Source of the DNA: Thermoplasmata archaeon
Lineage (GTDB): Archaea > Thermoplasmatota > Thermoplasmata > Lutacidiplasmatales > UBA184
Reading direction: 5' to 3'
NCBI GenBank assembly: GCA_021817605.1
Contig: JAKAUN010000015.1
Coordinates: forward strand, 1 to 64,000
DNA: 64,000 nt
The notes under the pieces were generated by a model, which searched no databases, was not told where the DNA came from, and saw nothing but the letters and a program-made list of their open reading frames with translations. Positions 1 through 42,404 of this stretch are shown here, one piece after another; position 1 is the first letter of the stretch, and each line of letters opens with the position of its first letter. A program made the translations under genes and the position numbers.

Positions 1-127
1 TTATCCCCGTCTCGAGGGCAGATTGTCCGCGTGTTACTGAGCAGTGCGCCGAGGGCTTACCCCTCTCGACTCGCATGGCTTAAGCGAACTCCAATAGCGG
101 TGCCCGCCGGCAGGATCAACCGGATTG
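1..127 (-). rRNA. 16S ribosomal RNA, 5' end (gene truncated by window start)
   Basis: Reverse complement reads AATCCGGTTGATCCTGCCGGCGGGCACCGCTATTGGAGTTCGCTTAAGCCATGCGAGTCGAGAGGGG..., matching the conserved archaeal 16S 5' end. Confidence 0.96.
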
Positions 128-10132: not shown

Positions 10133-10275
10133 CGGGCCCGGGGGGAGCTTCGGCGCGACCGTGCGGACCACGCACAGAGGCTCGTTCGAACCCCCGACCA
10201 CCTGGTTAAAAGCCAGATGCTCTGTGCCGGGCCTCCGGCGTCCCCGGACGGCCAACCGGACTGAGCTACGGGCCC
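10133..10275 (-). tRNA. tRNA-Lys(UUU) with two putative non-canonical introns (D-loop about 10225..10253; T-loop 10147..10184)
   Basis: Spliced model GGGCCCG TA GCTC AGTCCGGTTCA GAGC A TCTGG CTTTTAA CCAGG TGGTC GGGGG TTCGAAT CCCCC CGGGCCC G folds as a full cloverleaf. T-loop intron flanked by h GGGGG/CCCCC, H UUCG/CGAA, bulges AAC and GCU. Confidence 0.88.
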
Positions 10276-37101: not shown

Positions 37102-37658
37102 GCCCCGGGCTCGAAGGCTTCGTCCAGCCGCCACTCGGCAAAGGCTCGCCCGCCGGAGGCCCGTCGGACCTCGCGGGGGACGCCGGACCAGCTGACCCCC
37201 TGGGGCATCGTTCCGCGGTCGATCGCCTCGAGGGCCTCGCGAAGGCGCGCCCGATGCCGAGCGAACGGGTCGGACCCCGCCTCGCCGGAGCGGGGCGTGG
37301 GCGCCCGCACCTCGGTGAACTGCCCGTCGACCACGACCGAGACGCCGACCACCGCGGCGCGCGAGGAGGCCGTCCTCTCAACGAGCGCTTGGGCGGCCTT
37401 CGCCGAGTCGACGACGACCCCGACCCAGTCGGCCCACGCCCGTCGGCGGAGCGCCTGAGCGAATACGAGGCGGGGGCGTCCGATCTTGCCCTCGAGGAGG
37501 CCGACCTCCGCTCCCCGACGCACCGCGAGGTCGAAGTAGCTCTTCCCGTCCGGGTCGAGGTAGGTGCGGTAGCCGCGGGCGGCCATCGCGCGGGCGGCGA
37601 TCTCGAGGAGCTCGCGCTCCGAGCCCCTCGGCCGCGAGCGGGGTTGGGCCGAGCTCAT
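37038..37658 (-). CDS. Conserved-looking protein with possible PD-(D/E)XK nuclease-like fold, third gene of the mutSL operon
   Basis: ATGA overlap with mutL; core ERELLEIAARAMAARGYRTYLDPDGKSYFDLAVRRGAEVGLLEGKIGRPRLVFAQALRRRAWADWVGVVVD shows D-x12-ExK in an apparent alpha-beta-beta-beta-alpha-beta order. Confidence 0.6.
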   Translation of the reverse strand: MSSAQPRSRPRGSERELLEIAARAMAARGYRTYLDPDGKSYFDLAVRRGAEVGLLEGKIGRPRLVFAQALRRRAWADWVGVVVDSAKAAQALVERTASSRAAVVGVSVVVDGQFTEVRAPTPRSGEAGSDPFARHRARLREALEAIDRGTMPQGVSWSGVPREVRRASGGRAFAEWRLDEAFEPGAQAAEAAATPEATRSGAKRSP

Positions 37659-39448
37659 GCACCCTGCCTCAGGAACCATCGGTCGAGCCGCGAGCGAGAG
37701 AGGCGTACCATGATCGGTCGGCCGTGCGGGCAGGAGCTCGCGGGGCTCGCAAGCCGGTCGAGCGAGCGCAGCAGCCCGGCAAAGAGCTGGGGGTCGACCG
37801 CCTCGCCGGCGCGGACGGCCGCGTGGCAGGCGATCGTCGCCGTCACCCGGTCCCTGAGCGCGTCCGGCACCGTGGGCCTTCCACCCTGGGAGAGCTCGCG
37901 CAAGAGCTCGCGCAGCATCTCGGCCGAGGCCCGTCGGCCCCGGAACGTCGGCACAGCTAGGAGGCGATGCGTGGTCGGACCGAACCGCTCGACCTCAAAG
38001 CCTGCCGAGCGCACCTCCTCTTCGTGGGCGTCGAGAGCGGCGCGCTCCGAGGGCGAAAGCTCGAAGACGAGCGGGTCGACCAGCTGCTGGCGGGAGAGGG
38101 TTTCGCGGGAGCGCAGCGACTCGAACAGCAGCCTCTCGCTCGCGGCGTGCTGGTCGATGAGGACCAGGCCGTCGTCGCTCGAGGCGACCCAGTAGAGCGC
38201 GTCAATCGTCCCGAGGAGCTCGAGGGCGGGCCGTCGCTCGCTCCCCTCGAGCCGGGAGAGCGGGCCGACCCCGGCTGCGCGGTCCAGCCGCCGCTGCCCT
38301 GCCGGACGGAGGGAGCTGCCGGGGAGAGCGAGAGGGGAGGGGCGCGCCGCGGGAGGCGGCGCGGTGCCCGCCGACGGTCTGCCGAGCGAGGCGGCGGAAA
38401 GCGGGCGCACCGACCGCCCCGGCTCGGAGGCCTTCGGGGAGCCGAGGAGGGCCTCCCGAACGAGGCGTCGGAGGGTGTCGGAGAGCTCCCGCTCGCGGGC
38501 GAAGCGGACCTCGCGCTTGGTCGGATGCACGTTGACGTCCAACCGGTCGGGAGCGAGGTCGAGGTGGACCACTCCGACCGGGAAGCGAACGCGGGGGATC
38601 GTGTCGCCGTAGCCGAGCCGCACGGCCTGGACGAGGGGCCGCGAGGCGATCGGACGGCCGTTGACCGAAAGGTAGAGCCCGCCCGAGGTCGGCCCCGCGA
38701 GGACGGGATGACCGAGCGCGCCGGCAACGCTCCCTCCCGGGATCTCGCCTCGGAGGGGGAACGAGCCCGTGACGAACTCCGGCCCGAGGACGAAGGCGGC
38801 GGCCTCGGTAAGGTGCGAGGCGGCGGGGAGGAGCGCCACCTCCCTTCCCTCGGAGAGGACCCGGATCGTCACCGACGGACGCGCGAGGTAGAGCCGCTCG
38901 AGCGTGCGAACGATCTCGACCTGCTCGGCGGCCGGCGACCTCAGGAACTTGCGTCGCGCCGGGGTGTTGAAGAAGAGCTCCCGCACCTCCACCGTCGTCC
39001 CGACGCCCCGGGGAGCCGCGAAGGGCGTCGGGGAGCTCCCGCCGGCCGTGGAGAGCCCCTCCGCGACCTCGGAGCCCTCGGGTCGCGAGAGGAGCGTGAG
39101 ATGCGCCACCGCGGCGACCGAGGCGAGCGCCTCGCCCCGGAAGCCGAGCGTGTCGATCCTGTCAATCGGTCCGTCCGGCGGGAGCTTGCTGGTCGCGTGG
39201 CGCTCGAGCGCCCGTGCGAGTTCCTCGCCCGGGATCCCCCAGCCGTTGTCGGCGACCTCGAGCAGCTCGGTCCCCCCGCCCATGAGCCTGACCGTCACCT
39301 GGGTCGCCGACGCGTCCAGGGAGTTCTCGACCAGCTCCTTGACGACGGAGGCCGGCCGCTCGATGACCTCGCCGGCGGCGATCCGCTCCACGACCGACGG
39401 AGCAAGGGGACGGATCGGCTGACGCATCGGGAGGGCGGGAGCGCTCAT
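37655..39448 (-). CDS. mutL: DNA mismatch repair protein MutL, endonuclease-motif type
   Basis: IAAGEVIERPASVVKELVENSLDASAT, GFRGEALASVAAV; C-terminal DQHAASERLLFE matches DQHA(X)2E(X)4E; CPHGRP. Confidence 0.96.
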   Translation of the reverse strand: MSAPALPMRQPIRPLAPSVVERIAAGEVIERPASVVKELVENSLDASATQVTVRLMGGGTELLEVADNGWGIPGEELARALERHATSKLPPDGPIDRIDTLGFRGEALASVAAVAHLTLLSRPEGSEVAEGLSTAGGSSPTPFAAPRGVGTTVEVRELFFNTPARRKFLRSPAAEQVEIVRTLERLYLARPSVTIRVLSEGREVALLPAASHLTEAAAFVLGPEFVTGSFPLRGEIPGGSVAGALGHPVLAGPTSGGLYLSVNGRPIASRPLVQAVRLGYGDTIPRVRFPVGVVHLDLAPDRLDVNVHPTKREVRFARERELSDTLRRLVREALLGSPKASEPGRSVRPLSAASLGRPSAGTAPPPAARPSPLALPGSSLRPAGQRRLDRAAGVGPLSRLEGSERRPALELLGTIDALYWVASSDDGLVLIDQHAASERLLFESLRSRETLSRQQLVDPLVFELSPSERAALDAHEEEVRSAGFEVERFGPTTHRLLAVPTFRGRRASAEMLRELLRELSQGGRPTVPDALRDRVTATIACHAAVRAGEAVDPQLFAGLLRSLDRLASPASSCPHGRPIMVRLSRSRLDRWFLRQGA

Positions 39449-42063
39449 GGCGGCGGCTCCTCGAGCCCGAGCCGACGCTGGATCTCGGAGAGACGCGCCC
39501 TAAGCTCCGCGTCGGAGAGCTCGTCGAGCGCCAGCCGGGCGATCTCCTCCGCCACGGGCTCCGGGGACTCCGGCGGGGAGGCATCCAGGAGCACGGCCTG
39601 CGTGTAGTGGGGGCCGACACGCTTGCGGGACGGCCCGCGTCGGGCGGCTCCGAACTCCCCGGCCTCGAGCTCCGCGAGGAGCGACTCGGCCTCCCGGAGC
39701 ACCGACGGCGGTACCCCGGCAAGGCGGGCGACGTGCACCCCGTAGCTCTTCTCGGTCGCTCCGGGGACCAGGCGGTGCAAAAAGACGATCCCCTGCGGCC
39801 GGTCCTGGACGGCGAAGTGGCCGTTGGTCGCCCCGTCCAGCCCGGCGACCAGGTAGGTGAGCTGGTGATAGTGCGTGGCGAGCACGGTGCGCGAGCGGCT
39901 CACGTCGTGGAGGTGGCGCAGGATCGCCCAGGCGATCGCGAGGCCGTCGAAGGTGCTTGTGCCGCGCCCGACCTCGTCGAGCAGGACGAGCGAGCGCGCG
40001 TCCGCCCGGTGGAGGATCTCGGCGACCTCGAGCATCTCGACCATGAAGCTCGACTTGCCGCGCCCGATCTCGTCCGTGAACCCCATCCGGGTGAACAGCC
40101 GGCCGACCACCCCGACGCGCGCGAACCGTGCCGGGAGGAACGCGCCGGCCTGCGCGAGGAGGACGAGCAGCCCGATCGTCCGCATGTAGGTCGACTTCCC
40201 CGACATGTTGGGGCCGGTGAGGACCAGGACCCGCCGGGTCCCGGCGTCCAGCTCCACGTCGTTCGGGACGAACTTCTCGCCGAGCAGCCTATCGAGCACC
40301 GGGTGGCGGCCGTCCCGCACGACGAGCTCGGAGGAGCTGTCGACGGTCGGGCGGACGTAGCCGCGCCCGACGGCGAGATGGGCGAAGTCGGCGAGGGCGT
40401 CCAGCTCGCCGACCGCGCGCGAGAGCCGGTGGACCTCGGCGACGAAGGCCTCCACCTCGCCGAGGAACGACTCCCAACGTCGCTCGGCGGCCTCCTGGGC
40501 GGCCTCGCTGGCGGCGAGGATGCGCTCGGCGAGACGGTCGAGCTCCTCGCTCACGAACCGCTCGGCCTGGGCGACCGTCTGACGCCGACGGAAGTGCGGC
40601 GGCACACGGGCCAGGTTCGCTCGCGTGACCTCGAAGTAGTAGCCGAAGACCTGGTTGTAGCCGACCTTGAGCCCCTTGATGCCCGTCGTCGCCTGCTCCC
40701 GACGCTCGAGCTCGGAGAGCTCCGCGAGAGCCCGGGAGTGCTCCCCGCGAGGCCCGTCGACCTCGGGGGCGTGGCCGGGGCGGAAGAACTCCGCCGCGGG
40801 GGCGGCGTGCGGGATCTCCTCGGGAAGCGTCTCGCGGAGCAGCCGAACGAGCCCCTCGGGCGGCTCGAGCCGCTCGGCCATCGCCCCGAGCGCCGCGGCG
40901 AGTCCGCTCGTCCTCAGCTCCTCGGCGACCGAACGCGTCCCCTCGAGGCTCTTGCGGAGCACGACGAGCTCCTCCGGCCTCGCCCGTCGGCCCGCGACGC
41001 GCGAGGCGATGCGGCTGATGTCGGCCACGCCGCGCAGAAGGCCACGAAGCCTCTCGAGGGTCGCCGGGTGGTCGACGAGGGCCTGGACCGCCGACTGCCT
41101 CGCGGCGATCCGCCCCGGGTCCGCGAGGGGGTTCGTGAGCCAGAAGGCGAGGGTCCGGCGGCCCACCGCCGTGACCGTCTCGTCCCACGCTTCGAGGAGG
41201 GTCGGCCCCGCGGGGTCGTCCGGGTTCATCGGCCGGTGGACCTCGAGGTGCCGCAGGGTCTTCGCGTCGAGGACCAGACGGGGCCCCCCTCCGCCGCGGT
41301 CGATGCGTCCGACGTGGGAGAGGAGCCGCGGCTGCGTCGTGGCAAGGTAGCTCGCGAGCCGCAGCTCGCCCTCGCGGGCCAACGGGTCGTCGAAAGGGGC
41401 CTCGGAGAGGGCGGGCGGGATCGCGTCCGTCGTCGGGGGAGGGGACGGCTCGAGGCGGGCCCGGGGGAACTCGTGGCGGAGGTGCCGCTCGAGCTCGGTT
41501 TCGGCCTCCCCGTCCGCATGGTAGAGGATCTCGCGGGGCCGCAGGGCGGCGAGGGCCGAGACGATCCCCTCCGGCCCGGGGCCATCGGCGGGCCCGGCGA
41601 GCCACTCTCCGGTAGTGACGTCGACGGCGGCGTACGCCCCGCGTCCGTCGCTCCCGAGCTGGCCGAGGGCGAGGAAGCTGCTCTCCGGGCCGCCGAGGAT
41701 GCTCTCCTCGACGACGGTGCCGGGGGTGACGACGCGGGTGACCTCCCGCTTCACTAGGCCCCGGGCGGCGCGAGGGTCCTCGACCTGGTCGCAGAGGGCG
41801 ACCTTGAACCCCTTGCGCACGAGGCGGCCGAGGTAGGTGTCGATCGCGTGGTGCGGGACGCCGGCCATCGGCGTCCGCTCCCCGCGCGTGTCGGGCGCCC
41901 GAGCGGTGAGGACGACGTCCAGCTCCCGGGACAAGAGACGGGCGTCGTCGCCGAAGGTCTCGTAGAAGTCCCCGACGCGGAAGAGGATCAGGTGGCCGGG
42001 GAACTTCGCCTTCACCCCCTCGTACTGCTCAAGGAGAGGGGTGGTCGCCAGCGCTCCGGCCAT
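39445..42063 (-). CDS. mutS: DNA mismatch repair protein MutS
   Basis: N-terminal GDFYETFGDDA (F-x-E), LTGPNMSGKSTYMRTIGLLVLLAQ Walker A, LLDEVGRGTSTFDGLAIAWAIL. Confidence 0.97.
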   Translation of the reverse strand: MAGALATTPLLEQYEGVKAKFPGHLILFRVGDFYETFGDDARLLSRELDVVLTARAPDTRGERTPMAGVPHHAIDTYLGRLVRKGFKVALCDQVEDPRAARGLVKREVTRVVTPGTVVEESILGGPESSFLALGQLGSDGRGAYAAVDVTTGEWLAGPADGPGPEGIVSALAALRPREILYHADGEAETELERHLRHEFPRARLEPSPPPTTDAIPPALSEAPFDDPLAREGELRLASYLATTQPRLLSHVGRIDRGGGGPRLVLDAKTLRHLEVHRPMNPDDPAGPTLLEAWDETVTAVGRRTLAFWLTNPLADPGRIAARQSAVQALVDHPATLERLRGLLRGVADISRIASRVAGRRARPEELVVLRKSLEGTRSVAEELRTSGLAAALGAMAERLEPPEGLVRLLRETLPEEIPHAAPAAEFFRPGHAPEVDGPRGEHSRALAELSELERREQATTGIKGLKVGYNQVFGYYFEVTRANLARVPPHFRRRQTVAQAERFVSEELDRLAERILAASEAAQEAAERRWESFLGEVEAFVAEVHRLSRAVGELDALADFAHLAVGRGYVRPTVDSSSELVVRDGRHPVLDRLLGEKFVPNDVELDAGTRRVLVLTGPNMSGKSTYMRTIGLLVLLAQAGAFLPARFARVGVVGRLFTRMGFTDEIGRGKSSFMVEMLEVAEILHRADARSLVLLDEVGRGTSTFDGLAIAWAILRHLHDVSRSRTVLATHYHQLTYLVAGLDGATNGHFAVQDRPQGIVFLHRLVPGATEKSYGVHVARLAGVPPSVLREAESLLAELEAGEFGAARRGPSRKRVGPHYTQAVLLDASPPESPEPVAEEIARLALDELSDAELRARLSEIQRRLGLEEPPP

Positions 42064-42158: not shown

Positions 42159-42242
42159 CGCTGAGGGGGAGATTTGAACTCCCGTGGCGAGACCGCCACC
42201 AGCTTTCAAGGCTGGCGCCTTACCGGGCTAGGCTACCTCAGC
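42159..42242 (-). tRNA. tRNA-Ser(UGA)
   Basis: GCTGAGG...CCAGC CTTGAAA GCTGG, long variable arm GGCGGTCTCGCC, GGGAG TTCAAAT CTCCC, CCTCAGC G; no intron. Confidence 0.95.
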
Positions 42243-42303: not shown

Positions 42304-42404
42304 TGCAGGTGCCGGGAGGCTCGCGACGGGCGGAAGGCGCCCGTCGTTTCGAACCCGGGTGGTCAGCTTGGAGGGCTGACATCCTACCACTAGATTACAC
42401 CTGC
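42304..42404 (-). tRNA. tRNA-Gly(UCC) with a T-loop intron (42318..42347)
   Basis: GCAGGTG TA ATC TAGTGGTAG GAT G TCAGC CCTCCAA GCTGA ... CCGGG TTCGAA [30-nt intron] T CCCGG CACCTGC A. hBHBh' present: h CCGGG/CCCGG, H UUCG/CGAG, bulges AAA and CCU, h' CGACGGGCG/CGCCCGUCG. Confidence 0.93.

Follow-up and report, generated by a model that had tools for sequence, protein, structure and literature searches.

The tRNA-Gly(UCC) gene found on the minus strand at 42304..42404 of the window (the whole analyzed stretch of 64,000 nucleotides) is very probably a working gene, whose T-loop is interrupted by an intron of a copyable, T-loop-specific class, predicted to be spliced by EndA and RtcB. The gene was recognized by a covariance model and by ARAGORN on its spliced form. 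Exon 1 (tRNA positions 1-59, 42348..42404), which is nearly identical in 30 orthologs, is separated from exon 2 (positions 60-73, 42304..42317) by a 30-nt intron (42318..42347), as indicated by the sequence, the spliced form and, for the intron, the orthologs. On the minus strand, the precursor reads GCAGGTGTAATCTAGTGGTAGGATGTCAGCCCTCCAAGCTGACCACCCGGGTTCGAA (exon 1), acgacgggcgccttccgcccgtcgcgagcc (intron) and TCCCGGCACCTGCA (exon 2). An earlier sequence-only reading had placed a 30-nt intron at 59/60 of this tRNA, and both the coordinates and the complete spliced tRNA agree with it.

The sequence and the predicted fold of the T-arm displayed two 3-nt bulges with a 4-bp helix between them, flanked by an exon helix (CCGGG:CCCGG) and an intron helix. 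In the central helix, UUCG:CGAG, which includes one U.G pair, the exon strand UUCG (positions 54-57, 42350..42353, minus strand as for all features of this gene) faces the intron strand CGAG (42320..42323). The intron helix, to which covariation also testifies, comprises 9 bp between CGACGGGCG (42338..42346) and CGCCCGUCG (42324..42332) and is closed by a 5-nt loop. The 5' bulge AA/A (42347..42349) and the 3' bulge CC/U (42317..42319) contain the respective splice sites, marked here by the stroke. When folded, the 47-nt T-arm gave exactly this motif (-27.6 kcal/mol, z -3.1), so that every helix and bulge of the hBHBh' structure proposed in the sequence-only reading was recovered; the whole precursor folded with a z of -5.1. 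Upon excision of the intron, the normal T-loop UUCGAAU is obtained, the acceptor, D, anticodon and T stems are all intact and ARAGORN reports a complete tRNA-Gly(UCC). The unspliced gene scored 22.7 bits against the Rfam tRNA model (cut-off 29) and received no ARAGORN call. With R1, a covariance model built from nine T-loop-intron tRNAs of the source genome, it scored 77 bits (E 6e-17 in its own genome), a value far from chance; the Gly gene is among these nine sequences, which R1 matches by construction since it was built from them. Position 33 (window 42373) is C where U is usual, and the orthologs have C in some cases and U in others. An intronless tRNA-Ser(UGA) gene is its neighbour (42159..42242, minus strand), and ORFs resembling MutL and MutS, read by eye, adjoin this tRNA pair (37655-42063, minus strand); the window edge (1-126, minus strand) holds the 5' end of an archaeal 16S rRNA gene.

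In order to follow the intron among relatives, the exon-1 pattern was searched with up to 3 mismatches and was found in 64 of the 103 family genomes, the reversed control pattern giving 0 matches. Thirty of the matched places, the window's own included, were fetched, and in 30/30 an intron of 29-34 nt occupied the identical site; the exons vary at few positions and the intron bodies strongly. An alignment of 27 distinct rows was prepared from the first 9 and last 14 intron nucleotides, the middle being left out. In these rows, 91.3% of the cells were paired in the named structure, versus a mean of 76.8% in a shuffle control, which ignores the relatedness of the rows, and 28-61% in slid versions, which retain it. 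Double-change cells numbered 62 versus 25 in the control, and all eight intron-helix pairs examined in the 27 rows show double changes. The intron helix is thus preserved through compensatory change in the orthologs; in the central helix, variation is confined to one side.

The source genome is that of a soil archaeon, a MAG of class Thermoplasmata in 16 contigs (1.75 Mb, listed as 100% complete). Its tRNA genes were inventoried with the Rfam tRNA model at a permissive threshold and with R1, and the counts rest on such searches; ARAGORN with introns allowed made many false calls. Forty-five tRNA genes were detected, every anticodon occurring singly except CAU (three genes). T-loop introns interrupt 14 of the 45: Asn-GUU, Gly-UCC, Arg-UCU, Arg-UCG, Glu-CUC, Gln-CUG, Ala-GGC, Asp-GUC, His-GUG, Ser-GCU, Ser-GGA, Ser-CGA, Lys-UUU and Leu-UAG. 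The genome-wide pattern at which two such introns in the window had hinted was therefore borne out by the survey. Introns at 37/38 are present in four tRNAs (Tyr, Trp, an elongator Met and Leu-UAA), and D-loop introns, with exact ends inferred, in five (initiator Met, Arg-GCG, Pro-UGG, Lys-UUU and Leu-UAG). Altogether, introns interrupt 21 of the 45 detected genes, and of the 23 introns 19 lie outside 37/38. The D-loop introns mostly misfit the strict BHB motif in the form tried; of those in the initiator Met, Arg-GCG, Leu-UAG and Pro-UGG tRNAs (L051, L061, L063 and L276), the majority resemble relaxed motifs. tRNA-Ile(GAU) was not found in this genome by the Rfam tRNA or R1 searches; it may be interrupted in a form invisible to both models or fall in a gap.

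The window also contains a tRNA-Lys(UUU) gene with two introns (10133..10275, minus strand), located by the genome searches and its spliced form. As the sequence-only reading had held, its T-loop intron is at 59/60 and has a different body: 38 nt (10147..10184, minus strand, from the motif scan and the spliced form) versus 30 nt in Gly. A second intron of about 31 nt in the D-loop (10224..10254, minus strand, exact ends inferred), absent from that reading, was recognized as the spliced form is a complete tRNA-Lys. A similar double D-loop and T-loop arrangement occurs in two loci of other families (L225 and L218).

A link between exon and intron was observed in 82 T-loop introns of the family, namely those that passed the scan. 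Exon base 57 is tied to intron base -6: G57 occurs with C in 30/30 cases, and A57 with G in 48/52 and with U in 4/52, A with C and G with G being found zero times among the 82. In the 31 introns sampled from other families, the combinations were G-C (23), A-U (6) and A-G (2); G57 stands opposite A in two introns of genome G334. Since A57.G makes up 48/82 of the family introns and 2/31 of those elsewhere, the A.G partner is frequent in the window's family. The word textbook, applied earlier to the Gly intron, hence holds for the Gly gene but not for about 60% of the sampled T-loop introns of the family, in which the central helix ends on its intron side with one non-standard A.G. For Arg-UCU, an A57.G case, the full motif fold was absent in isolation. 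Alternative registers for the A57 class (58/59, or the central helix moved onto G53) were worked out by hand and rejected, as they misfit the 3' intron ends.

The endonuclease of the source genome is encoded by a single 353-aa ORF in which PF01974 and PF02778 are each matched twice, both PF01974 domains being in one frame; no second EndA-like gene or separate subunit gene was found in this genome. In sequence searches against solved structures, the EndA proteins of M. kandleri and A. fulgidus were best, and the same two were the best full-length fold matches of an AlphaFold2 model (mean pLDDT 93). By these features, EndA is of the alpha'2 type, with two units fused in one chain and a predicted dimeric state. 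At the place of the Crenarchaeal loop, the stretch before LSLIE is equal in length to that of M. jannaschii and A. fulgidus, and no CSL/ASL-type insertion was present there in the source EndA or in 22 relatives. The source genome also has a gene for RtcB, the archaeal tRNA-splicing ligase. A PRGG segment was noticed in the first half of EndA (L022:718-1776; own residues about 104-112). Among 18 EndA proteins, it is present in T-loop-intron families f1, f8, f22, f30, f32, f33 and f35. It is shortened in f15 and f19, whose searched genomes gave tRNA matches of intact length only; it is missing or shortened in f47, which has introns, so the segment as an enabler of T-loop introns remains a lead only.

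The alpha4 and alpha'2 enzymes are reported to accompany canonical 37/38 introns (PMC4090602, PMC4033280) and broad specificity to accompany a CSL or ASL (PMC12397907, PMC6379350). On the other hand, archaeal EndA recognizes its motif irrespective of the tRNA mature domain, and a homodimeric endonuclease can cut bulge-helix-loop motifs too (PMC8707768); position alone therefore need not be a barrier. The surprise lies mostly in the abundance of these introns.

To estimate how widely such introns occur, R1 was applied to sampled genomes. At E <= 1e-12, matches were obtained in 129 of 250 genomes of the class and 46 of 196 genomes of the phylum; these counts are inexact because some near-threshold matches elsewhere are intact tRNAs of 73-75 nt, the gap in the source genome lying between intact tRNAs (<=58 bits) and the nine model tRNAs (>=71). 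The window's family has at least 5-10 R1 matches per genome, a lower bound because the number of scored candidates was small. T-loop introns were confirmed in many other families by reading the fetched loci directly, and once the intron was excised, ARAGORN called a complete tRNA in almost every fetched case; L223, a candidate with a second insertion, gave no ARAGORN call. In the genomes searched of families f19 and f15, the only matches were tRNAs of intact length, with no T-loop intron. In the open-licence literature, no paper was found on T-loop introns in Thermoplasmata or Methanomassiliicoccales. UBA184, which is among the named genomes matched by EndA, has been assigned to Lutacidiplasmatales (PMC9287336), an order near which the source genome probably belongs; the word intron is absent from the main text of that paper.

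These results can be combined in the following scheme. In the Gly(UCC) transcript, the T-arm and the 30-nt intron between 59 and 60 would form the bulge-helix-bulge, both bulges would be cut in the cell by the single two-domain EndA, and RtcB would join the exons to give the normal T-loop. The intron would supply the strand of the central helix opposite U54-R57, a stretch that is near-uniform across tRNAs. The T-loop intron should therefore be portable from one tRNA to another, whereas the central helix at 37/38 includes the anticodon region; once copied, one intron could splice from many tRNAs. Such copying may have filled the tRNAs of the source genome, a step suggested by its relatives only, because its own introns are not clearly above shuffled similarity (best pair of the 14 at 81%, inside a shuffled range with a maximum of 82%).

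Two other readings of the Gly locus deny it splicing or function. That it is a degenerate tRNA copy, a pseudogene with an insertion, would explain why the unspliced score is under the Rfam cut-off and why ARAGORN misses the gene, but all stems are intact after splicing and the exons are almost unchanged in the 30 orthologs while the introns diverge. Furthermore, GGA codons are in use (8 in the ORF read as MutS, 5 in that read as MutL and 6 in that read as Cdc48), and the genome searches (Rfam tRNA and R1) found no intact spare copy for UCC or for any other anticodon with a T-loop intron, each of which occurs once only; the sequence-only reading had named intact isoacceptors elsewhere as the observation that would overturn it. 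Exon conservation and single-copy status led us to reject the pseudogene as very improbable. The insertion could instead be retained in the mature tRNA as an expanded, unspliced T-loop, given that splicing is predicted from sequence only. This proposal was rejected as having hardly any chance of being correct: the intron bodies diverge freely and yet the BHB geometry and the helix are kept, including the 57/-6 link, and excision restores the T-loop of an ARAGORN-complete tRNA with the near-regularity described above, L223 being the exception.

For a spliced intron, its origin and its enzyme have still to be considered. The T-loop introns might be ancient relics, passed on vertically at a fixed ancestral site, rather than a copyable class; Glu-CUC, Arg-UCU, Gly-UCC and Lys are indeed recurrent carriers across many genomes, and no two introns of the source genome are clearly related. 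However, two other genomes of the phylum show sharing between tRNAs: in G334 the Arg-CCU and Gly-UCC genes have identical 45-nt introns and the Arg-UCU and Gln-CUG genes identical 16-nt introns (L334, L349, L338 and L342), and in G312 the Asp, Arg-CCU, Glu, Ala-UGC and Leu-CAA genes (L315-L319, L374) share variants of one intron although their T-stems differ, the listed pairs of bodies being 78-97% identical versus a shuffled maximum of 73%. As identical or near-identical introns occur in different tRNAs of these genomes, the intron has been copied, and purely vertical descent is considered unlikely, though with a real share of the probability. The removal of the T-loop introns by a nuclease other than EndA, which would then serve 37/38 only, appears highly unlikely. 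At the CSL/ASL place, EndA is without the known broad-specificity loop, and according to reviews alpha'2 enzymes act on the canonical BHB only, but the Gly motif is itself a canonical 3-4-3 bulge-helix-bulge, of the kind cut by alpha'2 enzymes, EndA reads its motif regardless of the mature domain (PMC8707768) and no second EndA-like gene was found.

We thus retain a working tRNA-Gly(UCC) with a copyable T-loop intron removed, as predicted, by EndA and RtcB. Against this reading stands the fact that 48/82 family introns have A57.G, while reviews call alpha'2 enzymes strict. A wider proposal, to which we give even chances, is that Thermoplasmatota possess a phylum-wide, still active class of T-loop-specific introns, spread via the UUCR complement and removed by a loop-less alpha'2 enzyme tolerating A.G or G.A as the last central-helix pair. 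In the reviews consulted, non-canonical tRNA introns go together with (alpha-beta)2 or epsilon2 endonucleases bearing an extra loop, and the tRNA introns reported for this archaeal branch sit almost exclusively in the anticodon loop. In the present lineage, which has one loop-less enzyme of the alpha'2 type, non-canonical introns outnumber canonical ones; if this is confirmed, the rule that relates enzyme type to intron position will need revision, and a copyable intron confined to a single site would offer a clean system in which to study how tRNA introns move. In addition, essential tRNA genes of this phylum fall under standard detection cut-offs.

Among known systems, the Crenarchaeota (Thermoproteales) have non-canonical BHB introns that are described as transposable (Fujishima et al. 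2010, cited in PMC4033280, PMC4390854). The likeness resides in BHB introns outside 37/38, in similar introns common to different tRNAs and in the interruption of over half of the tRNA genes in extreme cases; near-identical introns across tRNAs of one genome were seen here in G312 and G334 but not in the source genome. The Thermoproteales differ by an (alpha-beta)2 endonuclease with a CSL loop and by many intron positions, whereas the source genome has one two-domain, loop-less enzyme and most of its non-canonical introns at 59/60. Korarchaeum and Methanopyrus kandleri likewise have non-canonical introns outside Crenarchaeota (PMC4033280, PMC6379350). The M. kandleri EndA is also without CSL/ASL and is a best full-length fold match, but is of (alpha-beta)2 type; the homodimeric Korarchaeum enzyme has a specific loop, and the source EndA has no loop at that place. 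With the 37/38 introns of Euryarchaeota and their alpha4/alpha'2 EndA (PMC4090602), the enzyme class and the hBHBh' geometry are shared, but there fewer than 10% of tRNA genes have introns, only at 37/38, a rule from which the source genome departs with its 21/45 interrupted genes and 19/23 introns elsewhere. The junction of the permuted tRNAs of Thermofilum pendens and Cyanidioschyzon merolae is also at 59/60 in the T-loop (PMC3218864); here, in contrast, the halves are in normal order and the intron is internal. Finally, the Asgard Atabeyarchaeia and Freyarchaeia, of another phylum than the source genome, are likewise soil archaea in which most tRNA genes are interrupted, often at non-canonical positions (PMC11291895).
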